A stretch of DNA of 64,000 nt from Tichowtungia aerotolerans (GTDB lineage Bacteria; Verrucomicrobiota; Kiritimatiellia; Kiritimatiellales; Tichowtungiaceae): the NCBI RefSeq assembly GCF_009905215.1, contig NZ_CP047593.1, positions 806,001 through 870,000 on the forward strand, given 5' to 3'. Below are positions 52,537 to 64,000 of the stretch, one piece after another. How positions within the stretch are numbered: the first letter of the stretch is position 1; each line of letters starts with the position of its first letter. The position numbers and the translations under genes were made by a program. The notes below the pieces were generated by a model, which was not told the origin of the DNA, did no database searches, and saw only the letters and a list, made by a program, of their open reading frames with translations.

Positions 52537-52612
52537 GGCGAGATAGCTCAGTTGGTAGAGCAGGGGACTGAAAATCCCCGTGTCCCCGGTTCGATTCCGG
52601 GTCTCGCCACCA
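52537..52612 (+). tRNA. tRNA-Phe (anticodon GAA)
   Basis: Acceptor GGCGAGA pairs with TCTCGCC, discriminator A and encoded CCA follow (76 nt). D-arm AGCTCAGTTGG, anticodon arm GGGGACTGAAAATCCCC with GAA, T-arm GGTTCGATTCC. Its 3' end is a typical target of integrative elements, and accessory DNA starts directly after it. Confidence 0.97.
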
Positions 52613-53660
52613 CTTTTACAAACCGCTTATTGCTAACAGTTTAGCCATATGCGGTTTTTTAATGCCCTCAAAGCATAACGGCTGAGCATAACAATTTTTT
52701 ATTTGTCGGGGGCGTTTCAGAGCATCTGATACCGTCATAACCCGTCCAAAAATTAAACACACTGACCGGCCATTATTTAAATCGCACAGGCAATGCGGGA
52801 ATTTTTTTTGAACCGACACCCCTTCGCCCGCTCAATGCTACGGCTGAACATCGGGAAAACCGTAGAGATATTTATTGCGACTGCTTCTGGTCCCTTGTTC
52901 AGTCCAAAGACGGCTCACCAAATGGTTGCCACACAGAGCGACGTCCGTTCAGTCTGCGACGTATCCGGAGCAGTCTGAACAGTCGCGTCAACTTCAGCAC
53001 CGTCGAGGCGAGGAGTGAAGGAACCCGGGCGGCCCGGCGGTATTCCGCCGAAGGCGGCACGGGCGAGGAACGACGAGGCTGGACGGGGTGAGCACAACGG
53101 ACGGGGGCAGGGTCACCCCAAGGGGTGCGGATCTTTAACTCAAGTAACGACAGGTAGGTGGGGTAACCCCCAGATATTCCTTTTGTGCCGGGAGCTTCTA
53201 TAGAGGGCTGAATGAGCCCCAATACTTCGGAAGCAAGAGGACAACAGAGGGGATGAGGACGCGAAGTCTACCGTATAAGGCAAAAATTACAAAGGACACC
53301 CCATAAGGAACAAGACTGGTGGGATAAACCCCGCCAAGGCTTTTCCCCTCCCTGAAACCCCTCTTGCAGGTGCGAAAAATTTGCCCCGAAGCACTGATTT
53401 ATGAGTCCCATATAAAAAATCAACTCCTCACTCCATAAGGAACAAGACTGGTGGGATAAGCCCAACTGCCGTTTTTTAATGCTCCCAAGCCCGTATATTG
53501 GTGCGAAAAACTCGCTAAAACGCATGCACCAGATCAAATTTACCCCACACCTCATTAAAACCACCCACTGGGGATAAGCCCAACTGCCGGTTTTTTTCAT
53601 ATCCAGATTCGTGTGTATGTGCCCGGATTTATGGTCTTGCAGGGAGATCCATTGGCGTCT
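52613..53660. other. gene-poor left flank of the island
   Basis: About 1 kb between tRNA-Phe and the lipase-like gene. AACCGC at 52621-52626 can pair with GCGGTT at 52651-52656 before a T-run, a possible tRNA terminator. 52985-53270 is G-rich with short hairpins and no convincing gene. 53301-53600 holds the direct repeats listed separately. Confidence 0.5.
53301..53600. repeat. three degenerate tandem repeats of about 120-132 bp
   Basis: CATAAGGAACAAGACTGG begins at 53302 and again at 53434, continuing as TGGGATAA in both. GGGATAAGCCCAACTGCC occurs at 53453 and 53571. GGTGCGAAAAA occurs near 53369 and 53501. The unit count is about two and a half to three. No gene is obvious; a minus-strand frame shows the peptide LSHQSC twice, simply reflecting the repeat. 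Confidence 0.8.
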
Positions 53661-55916
53661 CTAATCCTGAATAGGATCAACGGGTTTTGCTGTTACATTA
53701 AAGAAAGCACAGGACAGTTCATCTGAAATTGCATATGTCCGAGTGATCGTTTTTGAAGAACTGGCCGTAATGGTGTTAACGAGCTGCCAAGGCCCATTCA
53801 GCGTCTCAGCTCTGTAGACATAGTTTTTTGTGTTCGGGTATGCCAGCCATGATACAGCCACACTGTTTTGTGAAGGCACGCTCAACCCTGTTGAAAGTGT
53901 CAGTTTGCTCAGGGCATTGTTATAGGCTGTTCCGAGGTAGTGTTCCTGATAATCGTCAAAGCCATCCCTGTCAGTGTCATATCCCTCAAGAATCGCACGT
54001 AAAAACCAGCGTTTGTTATTCGAGTTAACATCAATGTGTTTCTCATTGGTAGATGCGTAATGAACTTCATCAAAAGGACTTAGAGACAGGACTGAACTGT
54101 TACCATGAATAGTTTGCTCTATCTTGCTAATCGGGATGCCGAGCGAGCTGCATGTCGGAATGAAACAGTGATTTCCATAGTTACACCAGTCATCTGAGCT
54201 TTTATATGGAAGTTCATCAAATAAATCCTGAAAAGTTGACCGGGTGCCTCCTGATGCATTATCCAGCCCATAAGGGTAAAAATTGCGCTCATAAACAGTC
54301 TCATCGACAAGGTCAAACAGATCCCACGGGTCAAAGCGGCCATAAAAATCAGTAAGTGCAGTTGAGTCGGACCTATACAAAGCATAAATTCTGCTGCCTA
54401 TTTCCAGCGTAACCCCATCATCATAATGCCATTGGATGACTTGCTGGCCGGGATAAAATGGTTGCTTTGTTCCATATCCAGATCCGTTACTGATAGCTAT
54501 CGTTTTGCAGGAGGTGGGGTACCCATATGAATTCATGCTATTCCAAAACGATTCGCTATAGTATGGACTCTCCCCTGCTAGTGAGTCTGTACAGCGATAA
54601 TGGCACAACAGCATCTGTTGCGCGGCGACGGAATCGATCTTGTCACGATACTCTCTGGCAACGGCCAATTGTGAATAGCTCCCGGCGAACCCGCCAAAGA
54701 AGTCAAAGTAGTTCTGCACTCCGAGGGGAATGTTAGCCCCCGTCTGGGGAGAGTCAAAACTAATCCAGGTGTTTACGTCGCTATAACCGTAAGAGTACGG
54801 ATACTTATCCATAGCAGCCAGCGCCCGGCGCGTCACCAACCCACCCATACTCGCACCAATCACGGTAAATTTATCAGATGAACTTCTCCGACTGCTGTTA
54901 ATGTATTGAATGGCCTCAATAGCCAGATAGGCATTTCCAAAGATATCTGCTGTTGCATCATCAAAATCCAGCACGACCAAATCCCGCCCGTAAGCCCGCA
55001 AGGTCTCTACAAGGCTTTCCTTGTTCAGGATATTGTAGAGCACGTCCCAATCCATGTCGTTGTTCATGTCGAACCCTTCCACGACAAAGACCGGACAGTT
55101 CAACCCCGTATGGCTTCCTGATTTATAAACATACAGATTCCCCTGGAAGTCGGAGTAAGGATCGTCCGCCTGCACCCGCACCGTTTGAGTCGGCAGAGGT
55201 GTGCTGAGCGCTATAACATCCAATGCCGATTCCGCATAAAGCACAGTGCCACCGGCAAGGGTTGCCTTGATGGACAGCGTCTTCTCTCCTGTTGATTCAT
55301 ATGAAAGCACAATCGGCTGCCCTAAATTGACAGATTGCGCCCCCTGACCATCTCCGCCATCCAGATAGATTTCAGAAATCTGCTGTTCAGAAGAACTTAC
55401 CTCTTCAAACAGGTCGGATTCGTCAAGAACGACTTCCAAATAACTGCCTCGATAGGTTGCGTCTTTGAGTGGAGAAAAGGCAAACACCGTTACGTTGCTC
55501 TCGACAGATTCAACCTGCACAGACTCATCCTGCATCGCCACCCCCGCTGTTGCTGAAACCACAGTCCGGTCCCAATGAATCAGACTCAATGCCACCTTGT
55601 GCCACTCGTTATTTCGAGGAGCAGCCACCTGCTCATAAACAAGCACATCCGACTCTTTTAATGCTCCGAAAGCTTGAGACTGCTCCACAGCAGCCTGCTG
55701 CCGCTGTTGTTGCAATTCATAAACGAGCTGTCGATAGTCCGTTCGCGTAATAGCAGAGGACTCAGGTGCGCCAGTAAATTGATCAAGGTCGACCCATGAT
55801 GCCAGAGGCATATTCGTAGGGTTTATCCCGGCAGCCATAGATGAGAAATATCCCGTCAACGTAACAAGAAGGATAATCAACTGCCCTCTCTCAAATTTGG
55901 TCGCTATTTTGCCCAT
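53661..55916 (-). CDS. secreted alpha/beta-hydrolase (lipase-like) with calcium-type repeat
   Basis: 751 residues from the ATG at 55916, which follows GGAGTTCAA and opens a signal-like hydrophobic segment. The hydrolase domain has the nucleophile elbow FTVIGASMGGLVTRRALAAM, and CPVFVVEGFDMNNDMDWD precedes it. Near the C-terminus DTDRDGFDDYQEHY is a thrombospondin type-3 calcium repeat, and the last 80 residues form an fn3-like module of the kind seen in the 2-6 kb proteins. It overlaps the HEPN-like gene by 13 bp. Inferred to be exported; substrate unknown. Confidence 0.72.
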   Translation of the reverse strand: MGKIATKFERGQLIILLVTLTGYFSSMAAGINPTNMPLASWVDLDQFTGAPESSAITRTDYRQLVYELQQQRQQAAVEQSQAFGALKESDVLVYEQVAAPRNNEWHKVALSLIHWDRTVVSATAGVAMQDESVQVESVESNVTVFAFSPLKDATYRGSYLEVVLDESDLFEEVSSSEQQISEIYLDGGDGQGAQSVNLGQPIVLSYESTGEKTLSIKATLAGGTVLYAESALDVIALSTPLPTQTVRVQADDPYSDFQGNLYVYKSGSHTGLNCPVFVVEGFDMNNDMDWDVLYNILNKESLVETLRAYGRDLVVLDFDDATADIFGNAYLAIEAIQYINSSRRSSSDKFTVIGASMGGLVTRRALAAMDKYPYSYGYSDVNTWISFDSPQTGANIPLGVQNYFDFFGGFAGSYSQLAVAREYRDKIDSVAAQQMLLCHYRCTDSLAGESPYYSESFWNSMNSYGYPTSCKTIAISNGSGYGTKQPFYPGQQVIQWHYDDGVTLEIGSRIYALYRSDSTALTDFYGRFDPWDLFDLVDETVYERNFYPYGLDNASGGTRSTFQDLFDELPYKSSDDWCNYGNHCFIPTCSSLGIPISKIEQTIHGNSSVLSLSPFDEVHYASTNEKHIDVNSNNKRWFLRAILEGYDTDRDGFDDYQEHYLGTAYNNALSKLTLSTGLSVPSQNSVAVSWLAYPNTKNYVYRAETLNGPWQLVNTITASSSKTITRTYAISDELSCAFFNVTAKPVDPIQD

Positions 55917-56785
55917 TTGAACTCCGTCAGGATACAGGCAAGACAATGAACCGCGAGTTCAGCATCTCGCTCGGTTGGTTCCCGGTATTGATGATCATGG
56001 CGGGTGTTTTCCTTGGCCCGAGTGTGGAGGAGATTGATAATCTTGGCACAATTTGCAGCCATCAGCCGGGGAGGTGTACTTTTTTCGGCCATCTCGGAGA
56101 GCTTTGCCAGATCTTTTCCATGACTCTTATCCAGAGAGCGCAGGGCCAAAGCTGCCGCGCCACGGCACCGGTCGATCACAGAACTGGGCATGGCTCGTTT
56201 CATATCGTTTGCAACGCTTTCTAGTGCATCCAGTAGTGAGCTGCGAATCTCAGCAGGAATTAGAGACGCATCTACATCCGGCAAGATTCCCATGAATAAC
56301 ACGGGTTGAAGGGTTATTAACTGCTGCCCCAGAGTGAGCGCATCAATCGAAACAATCCGCCAAACAGAAAAATCCAGCGTTGATCCAATGGCAGCAAAGC
56401 GCAGTTGTTTATCATCCTTCCCCATGTATTTCGGGCCATAAGTCATGAAGTGCTCGCTCAAGCAATCAACGTTTGGCCGGAGCTGCTGTATATGTGCCAG
56501 TTGTTTCCGCTCAGCCAAATTTGCCGGGTATACATGCCAGTTTTGTGACCCTTGGCGGAAATAAATACGACCTCTTCGAATACGAGCAACCGGGTCAAAA
56601 AGGTCTTCCCGAAAAATAAACTCAGAGTCACCTCTTTTTGAAACTATCAACTGTTTGGCTGCCTCGGCCGTTGTGCTTCCGAGATGCATATTGAAAAGAT
56701 GCGGAGCTGGCTTAAGGAGCTCTCCTCCATACGTGTCTCGAGCCTCATATACTCTGTGATTAGACGTATCGATACCCAACATCAT
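55904..56785 (-). CDS. unknown island protein with HEPN/DUF4145-like C-terminus
   Basis: 293 residues, no signal or membrane segment. The first 175 residues (GIDTSNHRVYEARDTYGG onward) are unrecognised. The C-terminal 110 residues are helical, with VIDRCRGAAALALRSLDKS, then AKIINLLHTRAKENT and RDAELAVHCLACILTEFKW. That layout resembles HEPN/DUF4145-type RNase or toxin modules often found in defence genes. AGGAG lies before the double ATG. It overlaps the lipase-like gene by 13 bp, an unusual pairing. HEPN catalytic R-x4-6-H was not identified, so this is a weak structural guess. Confidence 0.5.
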   Translation of the reverse strand: MMLGIDTSNHRVYEARDTYGGELLKPAPHLFNMHLGSTTAEAAKQLIVSKRGDSEFIFREDLFDPVARIRRGRIYFRQGSQNWHVYPANLAERKQLAHIQQLRPNVDCLSEHFMTYGPKYMGKDDKQLRFAAIGSTLDFSVWRIVSIDALTLGQQLITLQPVLFMGILPDVDASLIPAEIRSSLLDALESVANDMKRAMPSSVIDRCRGAAALALRSLDKSHGKDLAKLSEMAEKSTPPRLMAANCAKIINLLHTRAKENTRHDHQYREPTERDAELAVHCLACILTEFKWAK

Positions 56786-57835: not shown

Positions 57836-58126
57836 AGAGAGGTGCCGCGCTAATGTTTAAGGACCGTTCTCCTGCTCTCAGGGCTGTTTTTACGATGCCC
57901 GGCACCGGACCCTTACTTTGGCCCTTTCTTGCGCTTCTGAATCGCAAAAGGTGGCCTGAGCGGAACGTTTTGCAGAACGGATTGACTCTGCTGGTCATGG
58001 GTGTATTCTGCCGGAATAGAAAAGATTTAAAGGGCTATACGCCTTTAACAATTTAGCATCAGAAGTATTTATCGTTCTTCCGAAACCGCCAGTTTCAAAA
58101 TTGTACGAACGAACAGTGCAGAGGAT

Positions 58127-58142
58127 GCGCCCGCTCGGGCGC
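58127..58142. other. GC-rich hairpin upstream of the protease gene
   Basis: GCGCCCG-CT-CGGGCGC forms a strong hairpin 49 bp before the protease ATG. No T-run follows. May be an mRNA structure or an operator. Confidence 0.4.
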
Positions 58143-58190
58143 GCCTCTTGTGTTGTGTTCGTACAGGGCTCTGGCGGGCCTCGGAGGAGC

Positions 58191-59828
58191 ATGACCGGGA
58201 GGTTGCGCCTCTTTTTTTTGCGCTTGGCCTCCGGAAAGGAAGCTGTGCGACACATTCGGATTCTTATCACGCTCGTATGCCTCGCCGTTTTTTCGGTTTA
58301 TACCGTCGGTTACGGCAATGACATTAAAGTCGGGGATACGTATCAGTCCGTCATCCAAAAGCGCGGTCGCCCACAATCAAAAATCGGCGTCGGCGATGAC
58401 ATCATTCTGTGGTACTGGGGCGATCAGATAGAATTTAAAAATGGACGGGTGGTCCGGATTGAGAAAAGCTCAACCGCAAACGGAACAACTGCCCATCAGT
58501 TCATCGCTAACAATTTTGGCACAAGCGAAGAATCCGGCAGCAAGGCTCCTAAACCGTTAACTCGAAAAGAAGAAGAGTCGGCCACAGACAAAATCATACT
58601 CAGAATTTGTCTCGAAATGAGCATGACCGGGGCGACGATAGGTGAGCCTGAACCCATAGAGGCTATTATAGAACGAGCAAAACAGGCTACCGTGATTATA
58701 GAGGGGCCAGATAGTCACGGATCGGGAGTGATGATCACATCAGATGGTTATCTGGTTACAAACTGGCATGTTATTGCGTCCACAGTAAACAAAGTGCGCC
58801 TTTATGACGGTCGCGTTTACCCGATTAATGAGGTTCTCTGCTACTCGGTCGTATCGGACTTGGCCATCATTAAGATTCCAAATGGAGACTTTGAATATAT
58901 GCCCTTGGGTCTCTCAAGTGATCTCAGCCAGGGAGACAGCCTGTATGCAATGGGGCATCCGCATGATTCAGAATGGATACTGACAAAAGGCTATCTGGCA
59001 GCCAACCATCCTCGGCAAGGAAAATGGAAGCCGGGCACACTTCAGTTTTCGACAGATATTTCTCCGGGCAGCTCGGGCGGACCCATATTTGGCTCAGATG
59101 GTCGGGTATACGCCATCGCCCAACGCATGGAATTCCACCCTATCGCGATAAAGCTGGGAATCGTAACTGATCCAAGCAGGGTGTTTCGGTTCGGGATCAC
59201 TTCGGATGAAATCTTGAATCTGTCTGAACAGGTTGATGGGAATAAAAAATCACTGGTAGAAGCGCAGGAAATGGCCATTGAGCTTATGCTAATTGACCTT
59301 CTCCCCAGACTCTTCTACGACGCTCGTGAATTGATCACGCAGCAACATAAACAGATCAAGGAATGCCCCGTATTTGCGCCATACAGGCGACAGTTAGGAA
59401 CAGACCGGCGGGGGAATCCGGTGTGGACCCCATTAACATATCGCTTTGACCCTAAAAGCGGGGAGCCTATATACCAAAGCATTCTTGCGACCGAAGAATA
59501 CGCGGACTTGATCAACAACATCTGCCTGCTGTGCAAACCTTATTGTTCAGCAGACGCGAACAACAGCTTAGGTTTATTGTCAGCCGGGCTGAAGAGGAAA
59601 GCCTCCATTTGCAAATCCTTTTTGGATGACTACCCAAAAGAGGAATTTAAAAACCCTCCTCAGCCCCCATCATTGAATGACTACTCAGAAGAGATTGGCC
59701 GGGCAATTGTCTGTCTCCAACGAGCTGCAAGAAAACACGACCGACACCTGCCTGACCGACAGCTCGCAGAAGAGATTCAATCAATGACATGGAAAAGCTC
59801 ATGGGAGGGATCGTCGCTGAAGCGATAG
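58191..59828 (+). CDS. trypsin-like (HtrA-type) serine protease with BamE-like N-domain
   Basis: 545 residues from the ATG at 58191, preceded by GGAGGAG. After an N-terminal membrane segment (IRILITLVCLAVFSVYTVGY), residues 45-90 (KVGDTYQSVIQKRGRPQSKI) look like a SmpA/BamE-type domain. The trypsin domain has His193 (TNWHVIAS), Asp223 (VSDLAIIK) and Ser295 (SPGSSGGPIFG). There is no PDZ domain, so it is not a standard DegP. The C-terminal 210 residues are a helical region with clustered cysteines (NNICLLCKPYC). It overlaps the next membrane gene by 40 bp, suggesting a functional pair. Confidence 0.8.
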   Translation: MTGRLRLFFLRLASGKEAVRHIRILITLVCLAVFSVYTVGYGNDIKVGDTYQSVIQKRGRPQSKIGVGDDIILWYWGDQIEFKNGRVVRIEKSSTANGTTAHQFIANNFGTSEESGSKAPKPLTRKEEESATDKIILRICLEMSMTGATIGEPEPIEAIIERAKQATVIIEGPDSHGSGVMITSDGYLVTNWHVIASTVNKVRLYDGRVYPINEVLCYSVVSDLAIIKIPNGDFEYMPLGLSSDLSQGDSLYAMGHPHDSEWILTKGYLAANHPRQGKWKPGTLQFSTDISPGSSGGPIFGSDGRVYAIAQRMEFHPIAIKLGIVTDPSRVFRFGITSDEILNLSEQVDGNKKSLVEAQEMAIELMLIDLLPRLFYDARELITQQHKQIKECPVFAPYRRQLGTDRRGNPVWTPLTYRFDPKSGEPIYQSILATEEYADLINNICLLCKPYCSADANNSLGLLSAGLKRKASICKSFLDDYPKEEFKNPPQPPSLNDYSEEIGRAIVCLQRAARKHDRHLPDRQLAEEIQSMTWKSSWEGSSLKR

Positions 59829-60619
59829 CCATTGCAAATATGATGAACGCAAATGGCACAAAATGCCTCTGGCTCCCACAGGCGATTATATGCGTTCTTC
59901 TGCTTTGGGCATTATTCCCCAATCCATACGGTTACTACATTCTGCTACGATGGATCGTCTGCCCCTGCTTTATTTTCACGGCAGCACAGCTATTCACCCA
60001 CGGATCGAAAAAATGGGCATGGGCAGCAGTAGCTATTGCCCTAATGTTCAATCCTCTTATTCCGATTCACTTACCAAAAGAACTATGGCGGCTACTGGAT
60101 GTTGTCGGCATCGGCTTTGCCGTGTGGTCTGTTTTTTTGCTAAAGATCAAAATACCCATGAGGTTATGGGTTCCCCTGATCGTCTTTTACTTCGGGTTTG
60201 GCTGGGTGTTTGCAATAACCGGGCTACCCTTTGACAGGGCCATACTTTATTTTGCTGGAACAGAAACAAGGGGACGCTTAACTGTCATTAATGAGGGCAG
60301 CAAGATCGATGAATACGGCGAAGAACATTCAGGGTATGTCGTCGAGTATTCATTTGAGGCAGGCGGCAAAACAATCTCTAATGAACGCTCATACTCTGGC
60401 CATCCCGGTTATTGGAGCCGCCCGACCATCATTTACTGGAAATTGGCCCCGGCGATCATAAACATCCCTATCGGCCCCGAGAGCCGCCCTACATTCTTCA
60501 TGAGCGTAATTCTGGGCTCTATCTTCGACATTGTCCTATACGGCCTGCTCGCCTTCGCCGTTTGGGTGGCATACAGCGTGGCAAAAGATTGGAAGAAACC
60601 TTCGGCAGAAACGGCCTAA
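59789..60619 (+). CDS. multi-pass membrane protein, DUF6804-like N-terminus
   Basis: 276 residues with about five or six transmembrane segments. The first half (LWLPQAIICVLLLWALFPNP, RWIVCPCFIFTAAQLF, WAWAAVAIALMFNPLIPIHL) follows the DUF6804 pattern. The second half has a loop (GRLTVINEGSKIDEYGEEHS, VVEYSFEAGGKTI) like DUF3592-type domains before the last helix. It overlaps the protease gene by 40 bp. May anchor or be cleaved by the protease. Confidence 0.65.
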   Translation: MEKLMGGIVAEAIAIANMMNANGTKCLWLPQAIICVLLLWALFPNPYGYYILLRWIVCPCFIFTAAQLFTHGSKKWAWAAVAIALMFNPLIPIHLPKELWRLLDVVGIGFAVWSVFLLKIKIPMRLWVPLIVFYFGFGWVFAITGLPFDRAILYFAGTETRGRLTVINEGSKIDEYGEEHSGYVVEYSFEAGGKTISNERSYSGHPGYWSRPTIIYWKLAPAIINIPIGPESRPTFFMSVILGSIFDIVLYGLLAFAVWVAYSVAKDWKKPSAETA

Positions 60620-60629
60620 AAAAACGAAG

Positions 60630-60653
60630 GAGGCCCGAGGCCCTGCGGGCCTC
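60630..60653. other. hairpin between convergent genes
   Basis: GAGGCCCG (60630-60637) pairs with CGGGCCTC (60646-60653). The A-run to its left would give a T-run on the minus strand, but it starts 3 to 5 bases after the stem. A weak terminator at best. Confidence 0.4.
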
Positions 60654-60658
60654 ATTGC

Positions 60659-60855
60659 TGTGGACTTAACGGCCTGTTTTGAAAACCTGATTTCTGCGCC
60701 TAAGACCGCGACCTTACTTTAGTCAATGTTTACAGGGGATAAATGCCTATTGCCCTATGTGGACGTAAGAGGCTGTTTTATAAAACCTGCCCCTGATCTG
60801 TGTGGATTTAAGGAGTTTTGATGCAGAGTGAATTTTGGGCTTAAGTCCACACAGG
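60659..60855. repeat. iteron-like repeats beside the polymerase-like gene
   Basis: TGTGGACTTAACGGCCTG followed by TTTTGAAAACCTG at 60659-60689; TGTGGACGTAAGAGGCTG followed by TTTTATAAAACCTG at 60758-60790; TGTGGATTTAAGG at 60801; and an inverted copy, CTTAAGTCCACACAGG, at 60840-60855. The first two units each contain an inner palindrome (GTTTTGAAAAC, GTTTTATAAAAC). They lie directly 3' of the polymerase-like gene. Could be an origin or a recombinase site. Confidence 0.75.
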
Positions 60856-60856
60856 T

Positions 60857-62140
60857 TTAAGCGTCTTCGACAACAGGGAAGATATTGGCTGCCCCGGTTA
60901 TTTCCTGCCAGCACTCCGCGTAAACCCGGTCGGCAATTTGCCGGTGCTCCGGTTTCACTAAATATTCATCATGAACGGACAATGACGGAATCCCCTGCCG
61001 CATGAGTTTGCGGTGGAACATAAACATGATAGAACCCTCGACGTTCATCAACTCAGCATGACGGGCTTTGTAGAAATAGCCGCTGAGTAGCGGATTATTC
61101 TTTTCAATGGCTCGCATAAGACCCGTCAGGCTTTTTGAGAATATTTTGGCGGCGACCCGGTGCTTGCGCTTGATTTCATCATTACTCGAAAATGCGGACC
61201 GGGCTGATGCTTCGTTCTTATTGTTGAGCATCATCTGAAGCATCCATTTAGCCGCGCCCACCAAATCCTCTTTGTATTTGAACCCATCTGGAGCAATGTC
61301 GTATGGGCTATACGTCATAGGCAGATTATGATCCATGCTGAGGATAAGCTGGGGGTGACACGCCTTTACATCCCGCCGATTACACTCCACTCCGTCTATC
61401 GTCACAGTGCATCGAAGGTCTTTGTCGATGCTGTGTAACGGGTGAATCAACCGCGCCCGAAGTGGCGATCCGTCATCTTGAGGAACATAGTTCATGCGAA
61501 ACGTCTCATTTAACGAGTCGTGACAGGAGGCGACATCAAACCCCGCCATAAACTCGTTAAACTCGGCAAGGGCTTCCAACGTCCCGTCATTCGGGAAATA
61601 AGGGATGTGCTCCTTGATGACCTTGCCCTTTACCTTTTTCTCCTTCACCAATAACTGACAGGGGCGAATGCTTATTTCCGTGAAAAGTTTTGTCGGTGTA
61701 ATCCATGATTTACCCTGTTGCCCATCAGCATAAAAACTTTTTTCCCAACTCATCAGCCCTGCGGCCACAAGGTCTGTGCGCAAGTTGGAGCGCAAGGTGG
61801 TCCCGCCTCCTACGAGAAATTCGACAGAAACCCCGCGCTTCAGATTATGTGTAATCTGGCGAGCAAGCCGCTCCCTATCTTCCCTGAAACGGGCATCTGG
61901 TTTTTTGATCCTCATGTATGCCTTGATTGTTTCCCACTCATCAGGAGAACACATCTTTTCTTCGAAATCGTGAATCTTTACATCCGACCTCGCAGGCGCA
62001 GGCTCAGCTTCTTTTTTCACAAAAGGGATAATTTTAGCCGAGGGATGCCGCATCGGCAACATCAAGCCTTTTGATCTGGAACGCATTGCCAAATCAAATT
62101 CATACGCTTCCATGAATGGATCTTTTAGAGCCGCTATCAT
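60857..62140 (-). CDS. putative minimal family-A-like polymerase / replication protein
   Basis: 427 residues. A motif-A-like element lies at 256-263 (RDVKACHPQL, Asp257) and a motif-C-like VHDEYLV at 389-395 (His390, Asp391, Glu392). Between them YKEDLVGAAKWMLQMMLNNK resembles the Lys-bearing O-helix (motif B). This fits uncharacterised polymerase-like proteins of mobile elements, with no exonuclease domain. The first 160 residues are unrecognised. The iteron-like repeats at its 3' side and the Cys-rich and HTH genes upstream support a replication role for the element. Assignment is by motif only. Confidence 0.6.
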   Translation of the reverse strand: MIAALKDPFMEAYEFDLAMRSRSKGLMLPMRHPSAKIIPFVKKEAEPAPARSDVKIHDFEEKMCSPDEWETIKAYMRIKKPDARFREDRERLARQITHNLKRGVSVEFLVGGGTTLRSNLRTDLVAAGLMSWEKSFYADGQQGKSWITPTKLFTEISIRPCQLLVKEKKVKGKVIKEHIPYFPNDGTLEALAEFNEFMAGFDVASCHDSLNETFRMNYVPQDDGSPLRARLIHPLHSIDKDLRCTVTIDGVECNRRDVKACHPQLILSMDHNLPMTYSPYDIAPDGFKYKEDLVGAAKWMLQMMLNNKNEASARSAFSSNDEIKRKHRVAAKIFSKSLTGLMRAIEKNNPLLSGYFYKARHAELMNVEGSIMFMFHRKLMRQGIPSLSVHDEYLVKPEHRQIADRVYAECWQEITGAANIFPVVEDA

Positions 62141-62937: not shown

Positions 62938-63549
62938 TCAATCGCCAGCAAAAAGCTCTGGGCAATGCTCATGCGTAACCTTCCACGAGTCCACCGCTGC
63001 ATTCCGGATTGCCCGCAAGTCAGATTCTTTACCATCGGGATCAGGAACAACGATCCTCAGTAATTTATCAAAAGCCCCTTTATCTGGCGTTGTGCTCGGC
63101 ACGATCTTCAACTCTCGGAATATGTAGCATGCGATCTTGTACGCCAATTCCTTGTAGGGAGAGGGCTGTTTGTTTGACAAAATCGCCTTATGCATTCCCT
63201 CGTATCGAGCACATAATCGCTTTAACCCCAGTATCATTTCATGATGAGGGGGAAATATTATTTCCCGTGGTGCCCGCCGAGGATCACTCAGGCTTTTTCT
63301 TTTGCCCTCCGGTGAAAATGATGCAGCTTCGGTTAAGGCCAACTGTTCATCCAGCCCAATAGCCTTTAGAGCTAAGCTTAGGTTCCGGATATTTTTTGTA
63401 ATCAGCTTTTGTTGTTTCCGCGTTCTGAGCAACTGGATCTTCTTAAAAAATTCTATGGTCTGCCCGTATTGAGCCGACACATTCTGGTCCTTGTGCCAAG
63501 CCAGCAACTGCCCCTTCTGCTCACGGCTCAACTTCATTTCGTACTCCAT
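62938..63549 (-). CDS. unknown island protein linked to the integrase
   Basis: 203 residues, strongly charged, helical. The first 75 residues (LSREQKGQLLAWHKDQNVSA onward) are basic and might bind DNA. No family is recognised. Its start overlaps the end of the integrase gene by 16 bp, so it is co-expressed and may help recombination. Confidence 0.55.
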   Translation of the reverse strand: MEYEMKLSREQKGQLLAWHKDQNVSAQYGQTIEFFKKIQLLRTRKQQKLITKNIRNLSLALKAIGLDEQLALTEAASFSPEGKRKSLSDPRRAPREIIFPPHHEMILGLKRLCARYEGMHKAILSNKQPSPYKELAYKIACYIFRELKIVPSTTPDKGAFDKLLRIVVPDPDGKESDLRAIRNAAVDSWKVTHEHCPELFAGD

Positions 63550-64000
63550 TTGGGGACAACCAACTTCGGAAGATTGTTGACCGCGGACCGCAATGCTATC
63601 GGGTCGCCGTGTGTGTAAATACGCGAAACCTCCGCGCTGGAATGCCCGGCCAGTTCGCGGGCAATGGAGTCACCTGCTCCACTCATTTTCAGGTTTGAGA
63701 CAAACGCATGTCTTAAACTGTGGAATGAGAGTTTGTTGACCGCCCGCTTTACTGTACGCCCTTTGCCGGTGCTTTCATGTGTCGGCTCTTTGGCAAGTCC
63801 TGCATCATGCATGATCTGCCGGAACTGATTGGATAGACTGGATGTTCCCGCCCGCTTGTGGGTTGCGCTTGCTTCGGGAAATACCGGCCCGCCGGTGTCA
63901 TAGGAAGGCAGTTTGACCAAAATGTCATGAAGAATATCCTTCAAGGGAAAAACCTCATCGGCACCGGTTTTCGATGCCTCAAAACGAATCTCCATCGCCT
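63534..64000 (-). CDS. tyrosine recombinase (integrase), 5' end outside the window
   Basis: Only the C-terminal catalytic part is present, about 155 residues; the frame is open to the right edge. Visible box II is LSFHSLRHAFVSNL (H-x-x-R-H) followed by LAGHSSAEVSRIYTH with His and the nucleophile Tyr. Site-specific integrase of the island, which probably inserted at the 3' end of tRNA-Phe (52537-52612). The arginine of box I would lie near or beyond the right edge. Confidence 0.88.
   Translation of the reverse strand, partial: AMEIRFEASKTGADEVFPLKDILHDILVKLPSYDTGGPVFPEASATHKRAGTSSLSNQFRQIMHDAGLAKEPTHESTGKGRTVKRAVNKLSFHSLRHAFVSNLKMSGAGDSIARELAGHSSAEVSRIYTHGDPIALRSAVNNLPKLVVPKWSTK

Follow-up and report, generated by a model that had tools for sequence, protein, structure and literature searches.

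Leader RNAs that attenuate transcription (riboswitches, T-boxes, ribosomal-protein leaders and premature-terminator leaders) have a conserved, folded 5′ structure in which covarying helices are combined with a pseudoknot, and an intrinsic-terminator-like hairpin lies a short distance ahead of the start codon. The put RNA of phage HK022 and the EAR RNA of the Bacillus eps operons are cis-acting antiterminator RNAs. The leader RNA described here, located ahead of a protease gene in 64,000 nt of Tichowtungia aerotolerans DNA (the whole stretch analysed, referred to as the window), has all of the features named for attenuating leaders, but it matches no Rfam family and its cargo is functionally unrelated instead of belonging to one pathway. 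With put and EAR it shares a large structured RNA ahead of a terminator and of surface or accessory genes and, in the reading proposed here, action in cis; the likeness drawn here is one of description. The leader RNA represents a new, previously undescribed family, found in roughly one third of the phylum genomes sampled. It probably serves as an attenuator or antiterminator over accessory cargo, and the operon of the protease and a DUF6804 membrane protein would be one such cargo.

Structure and distribution of the leader RNA

The leader folds into a pair of nested stems, with a pseudoknot and a long apical hairpin, and ends in an intrinsic-terminator-like hairpin; the protease start lies 25 nt further on (Table 1). 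No other part of the neighbourhood is as conserved or recurs as often, and the preliminary description of this locus had overlooked it. Compared with shuffled sequences, the fold gave z scores of -5.3 for the window copy and -4.4 for a second copy in the same genome. Among 53 distinct copies, 97.3% of the pair cells were paired, against 76.2% in shuffled and 37-49% in slid controls, and double-change cells numbered 311, against 71 and 22-47, respectively, in an alignment fitted to a two-sequence model, which favours that model's helices. Covariation extended to each of the 15 pairs in helices 1 and 2, and several of these pairs took between four and six forms. Although absent from the alignment model, the pseudoknot helix (columns 131-134 with 144-149) was 96.7% paired and showed double changes, one pair occurring as GC, UA and CG. 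A terminator-like hairpin and U-run close the leader in most copies, the hairpin being weak in some. That the structured RNA is real is close to certain.

Table 1. Positions of the leader, its cargo and the bordering features, in window coordinates.
Feature	Position	Strand	Remarks
attL, 31-bp tRNA-Phe 3′ end	52583..52613	+	tRNA-Phe itself 52537-52612
Structured leader RNA, new family	58075..58220	+	covariance models R1 and R2 match over the full length
Helix 1, 5′ strand	58075..58082	+	partner 58182-58189; double changes at all 8 pairs (53 copies)
Helix 2, 5′ strand	58086..58092	+	partner 58171-58177; double changes at all 7 pairs
Apical hairpin GCGCCC-GCTC-GGGCGC	58127..58142	+	most conserved sequence of the leader RNA
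Pseudoknot helix (helix 6), 5′ strand	58166..58169	+	partner 58178-58181; crosses helix 2
Terminator-like hairpin GGGAGG-TTG-CGCCTCTT and U-run	58197..58219	+	ATG58191 lies between helix 1 and the hairpin
Exported S1C/HtrA-type serine protease	58245..59828	+	GTG start 25 nt past the leader
DUF6804 membrane protein	59840..60619	+	probable start 59840/59843; listed ORF start 59789
GC-rich inverted repeat, end of cargo operon	60627..60656	.	terminator-like for the - strand
Gene matching phrog_4756 (function unknown)	60857..62140	-	adjoins iteron-like repeats 60659-60855
Tyrosine-recombinase-like integrase, C-terminal part	63534..64000	-	gene extends to window coordinate 64775

Scanning of Rfam 15 with cmscan gave no match for the leader at the gathering score, and eight leader copies searched against 4227 Rfam families gave none even at E up to 1. 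A literature search found nothing on the leader RNA.

When the same genome was searched at the DNA level, one diverged copy was detected, at 652.6 kb, directly preceding a gene for a BamE-domain lipoprotein. This copy lies in a second integrated element (G000:C1:651604-658683, corresponding to L166:8605-15684), which is inserted at tRNA-Lys, has a 45-bp att repeat and encodes an integrase (L166:14294-15514). Covariance model R1 was built from these two copies and matched 119 of the 288 genomes searched from the class, probably Kiritimatiellia. Model R2, built from 57 copies, matched 64 of the 195 genomes searched from the phylum, Verrucomicrobiota as GTDB defines it; 27 of the 64 fell outside the class, and the highest copy number in one genome was 13. 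The E-values of both searches are rough, and the first used the two-sequence model. Outside the phylum, weak matches were obtained in one of 13 genomes reached via loci from other groups, and that genome is labelled Planctomycetota. About 0.7 Mb of unrelated loci held no match beyond the known copies, and exact-pattern scans of viral contigs revealed no copy, which rules out those exact variants only. Neither 17 regions around related integrases nor the DUF6804 loci contained a leader match; thus, the leader belongs to neither. Proximity to tRNA genes was considered as a general property of the leader and discarded, occurring in nine of 41 long loci, about as expected.

The placement of the leader was polarised with respect to the neighbouring genes. 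The downstream neighbour was co-oriented in 49 of 62 copies, against 31 co-oriented and 26 opposed upstream (31/57). In 33 of 46 copies a start codon with a Shine-Dalgarno-like site lay no more than 140 nt away on the 3′ side, compared with 3 of 46 on the 5′ side and 24% at random places. Signal peptides, called by a simple rule of hydrophobicity and charge, were about twofold enriched in the downstream ORFs (25/50 versus 115-142/535 in the background; Fisher p 3e-5 to 9e-4); about half of these ORFs had no recognised signal peptide, and certain copies lacked a clear downstream ORF. TSP3-repeat surface proteins (TSP3_bac) accounted for 10 of 52 downstream ORFs. Other families following the leader were type III and type I methyltransferases and restriction-modification proteins, a type ISP restriction enzyme, a KAP NTPase, and Sel1 and ankyrin proteins. 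Length-matched control genes from the same loci were mostly metabolic and included one restriction enzyme, so the association with restriction-modification is suggestive only. A recurrent family of exported proteins, which range from about 265 to 1300 aa, share an N-terminal QYxFLPIxPP-like motif and in some members have TSP3 repeats, was often seen after the leader (loci L150, L151, L154, L155, L156, L157, L158, L160, L170, L171, L173 and L176).

The tRNA-Phe element and its cargo proteins

The protease and DUF6804 genes are genuine cargo of a small integrated element of 12.2 kb at tRNA-Phe. Indeed, the mobile island proposed in the preliminary description was confirmed by 31-bp repeats of the tRNA-Phe 3′ end at both borders and by a tyrosine-recombinase-like integrase, so named from its motifs. 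The second att copy lies past the window end, at genome positions 870810-870840 (window coordinate 64810-64840), 34 bp from the integrase gene. Besides the protease and DUF6804 genes, the element contains an alpha/beta hydrolase gene, two genes without a Pfam match, iteron-like repeats, the gene matching phrog_4756, small genes and the integrase gene. The hydrolase is encoded by a 761-aa ORF at 53661-55946, which has a signal-like N-terminus and a weak palmitoyl-thioesterase/PGAP1 match and is additional cargo of the element. A direct repeat of 35 nt (94%) occurs near the attL end, at 53297-53331 and 53429-53463, together with more short repeats. At 60659-60855, three TGTGGACTTAAGG-like direct repeats and one inverted copy lie beside the phrog_4756-matching gene; the arrangement has an origin-like look and is a possible replication module. 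Immediately outside the element, an ORF that by eye resembles an ISL3-type transposase occupies genome positions 870890-871681 (window coordinate 64890-65681).

Two start codons were considered for the protease. ATG58191, the start assigned previously, sits between the closing stem of the leader (helix 1) and the terminator hairpin, whereas GTG58245 has GGAAAGGAAG directly ahead and the signal peptide begins at once. Because ATG58191 adjoins the terminator hairpin and GTG58245 both follows GGAAAGGAAG and opens the signal peptide, GTG58245 is the likelier start judging from these sequence features. The protein read from this start comprises a signal peptide, a BamE-like N-domain (~58317-58463), the catalytic domain (~58632-59243) and a helical, Cys-containing tail.

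The catalytic domain matched Trypsin_2 (PF13365) in Pfam with E 3e-27, and its structural model aligned with HtrA1, AlgW and DegP over about 185 residues (Z about 25). The complete His-Asp-Ser triad described previously as H193, D223 and S295 was upheld; numbered from GTG58245 it is H175, D205 and S277, located in the motifs NWHV, SDLAI and GSSGGP, and these columns were invariant or nearly so among 24 homologues. In catalytic domain and triad the protein is thus like the HtrA/DegP family (S1C: HtrA1, AlgW, DegP and DegS). It differs from that family in having no PDZ domain, with the BamE-like N-domain before and the Cys-containing helical tail after the catalytic domain. The lack of a PDZ domain had been stated before, and Pfam searches agreed, finding no PDZ match in the whole protein and neither a PDZ nor any other match in the 232-residue tail. 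NCBIfam HtrA/Deg models matched the catalytic domain only, with scores far below their cut-offs. The protein is predicted to be an S1C/HtrA-type envelope protease in which the unusual N- and C-terminal domains would replace PDZ for targeting.

The two flanking domains were less clear-cut. The Cys residues claimed for the tail were found at 374, 427, 430, 434, 456 and 490, and its helical nature was given only by a low-confidence prediction. For the 58-residue N-domain, previously described as BamE-like, Pfam gave no match to BamE/SmpA (PF04355), the best being DUF2845 at E 0.01, below the cut-off. Its model consisted of one helix and three strands (pLDDT 41-53), and it aligned with a PF04355 BamE-domain protein of the same genome at a pairwise E of 0.001. 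The N-domain may be BamE-like, the resemblance being weak. No relatives of the N-domain were found in 30 related genomes. The tail had none in the 288 genomes searched from the class, nor did the full architecture in viral contigs, genome contigs, phages or 388 genomes of the phylum; plasmid matches to the protease covered the trypsin fold alone.

The next gene had been described as encoding a multi-pass membrane protein, and it does match DUF6804 (PF20619) at residues 32-115, with E 2.4e-21 and 76.1 bits against a curated cut-off of 27. The 40-bp overlap with the protease gene reported with it is probably the product of an over-long gene call: alignments with its relatives begin no earlier than residue 19-27 in listed-ORF numbering, and the true start is therefore probably ATG59840/59843, 11-14 bp past the protease stop. 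The protein has six transmembrane helices: four belong to DUF6804, and the fifth and sixth flank a three-strand soluble domain (~residues 162-203, numbered from the listed ORF). The PYGYY..LR and NP motifs are shared with its DUF6804 relatives, which are mostly about 105-130 aa long, whereas here a transmembrane helix, the beta domain and another transmembrane helix are appended. This C-terminal extension was absent from the DUF6804 loci examined in the phylum, and plasmid relatives (Agrobacterium and Arthrobacter) covered the N-terminal part only. The beta domain had no Pfam match, and its DUF3592-like look stays an impression because a fold search of the PDB with the membrane protein gave no significant match. 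The product may be an inner-membrane protein, co-transcribed with the protease and with its beta domain facing outward. A literature search found nothing on DUF6804. Among the DUF6804 fusions at L049:7990-8808, L065:7995-8498, L072:2563-3186 and L074:8404-10185 were proteins with a PLD-like domain, with zinc ribbons and, read by eye, with DnaJ-like, response-regulator and TPR-like parts. From these domain combinations, DUF6804 looks like a modular membrane domain or anchor.

Proposed role of the leader and alternative readings

In the proposed mechanism, the protease and DUF6804 genes would form a + strand cargo operon transcribed through the leader. By default, transcription would halt at the U-run and yield a short RNA, and a signal acting on the folded RNA would let RNA polymerase read into the accessory gene. 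The annotation of the protease also changes, to an exported protein with GTG58245 as its likely start and with probable control by attenuation.

The leader could instead be an independent trans-acting sRNA with its own terminator, travelling with accessory genes that receive weak readthrough; we consider this unlikely, though worth weighing. Copies do resemble complete sRNA genes in having a 5′ hairpin (a small hairpin ahead of the leader was present in 62 of 76 copies, versus 6 in shuffles), a compact fold, a terminator-like hairpin and a U-run, and genomes hold numerous copies of differing sequence. However, the gap to the co-oriented start codon is short in most copies, which leaves little room for a separate promoter, and the leader shows a strand preference downstream and none upstream, as described above.

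The preliminary description treated the protease and the membrane protein as a coupled system; in such a reading they would be one defence or signalling module, with the protease cutting or being held by its membrane partner. The genes are consecutive and co-oriented behind one leader within the tRNA-bounded element, which agrees with the part of that proposal placing them in one operon on a mobile island, and an envelope location is predicted for both proteins. DUF6804 was present in 25 of 388 genomes of the phylum, and the DUF6804 loci examined in this set had no trypsin-like ORF within about 8 kb. In 22 more DUF6804 loci (17 from genome contigs and five from viral contigs), a single HtrA-like gene was found, 620 bp downstream in a Bacteroidota locus (L067). 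The neighbourhood survey that had been suggested as a check thus gave one trypsin-like neighbour in about 32 other DUF6804 loci, and the pair did not recur. From the protease side, the comparison comprised a single case (n = 1), no relative of its architecture having been found. Among PADLOC models, LmuA and RT-Protease have the same protease fold, and restriction-modification genes follow other leader copies, but the PADLOC matches were limited to the protease domain, with no full-length match to Lamassu LmuA or RT-Protease_XI, and family searches of the neighbouring genes in the element found no RT or SMC-type partner such as SMC-like LmuB. A recurring partner system of protease and DUF6804 protein is not supported, and we regard a single defence or signalling module as improbable.

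Least probable, and very doubtful in our judgement, is that the leader sequence marks a place of recombination or insertion (attC-like, or a hairpin site of another kind) where accessory genes are exchanged, its structure acting as folded single-stranded DNA. The downstream cargo is indeed accessory and mobile, and both copies of the source genome sit in integrated elements. Helix 2 also lacked G.U at five of its seven pairs (A9 columns 13-17 with 139-143; 53 copies) and many occurred in the other helices; this is unusual for an ordinary RNA stem and counts against a leader. Overall, however, G.U or U.G pairs outnumbered A.C or C.A pairs by 120 to 12, an excess that DNA folding does not predict and that indicates selection on RNA of the gene's own strand. 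In addition, the terminator-like U-run forms part of the leader, copies are single and not arrayed, and the regions around related integrases lack it. An integron attC site in particular was rejected on the absence of RYYYAAC and GTTRRRY core ends in 31 copies read by eye, and a type III toxin-antitoxin RNA, which would have tandem repeats upstream of a ToxN-type toxin, on finding one element per place and unrelated downstream proteins.

Control of readthrough by the leader remains the favoured reading. Besides the G.U pattern of helix 2, the weak hairpin before the U-run in some copies and the downstream ORFs that are unclear or have no recognised signal peptide count against it, and no conserved alternative pairing of antiterminator type emerged. 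An orphan RNA that is strongly conserved, occurs in as many as 13 detected copies per genome and lies ahead of unrelated accessory genes is unlike riboswitches dedicated to one pathway. If readthrough control holds, surface and defence genes of this little-studied phylum would come under one common RNA switch. A broader version, in which a phylum-wide family of cis-acting antiterminator RNAs would silence surface-protein, restriction-modification and mobile-element cargo until a common signal such as infection, envelope stress or entry of an element arrives, is speculative and we hold it to be rather unlikely. Another leader copy, close to that of the window (L146:9355-9500), lies between a cluster of restriction-like genes (L146:2-7794, by eye) and an integrase.
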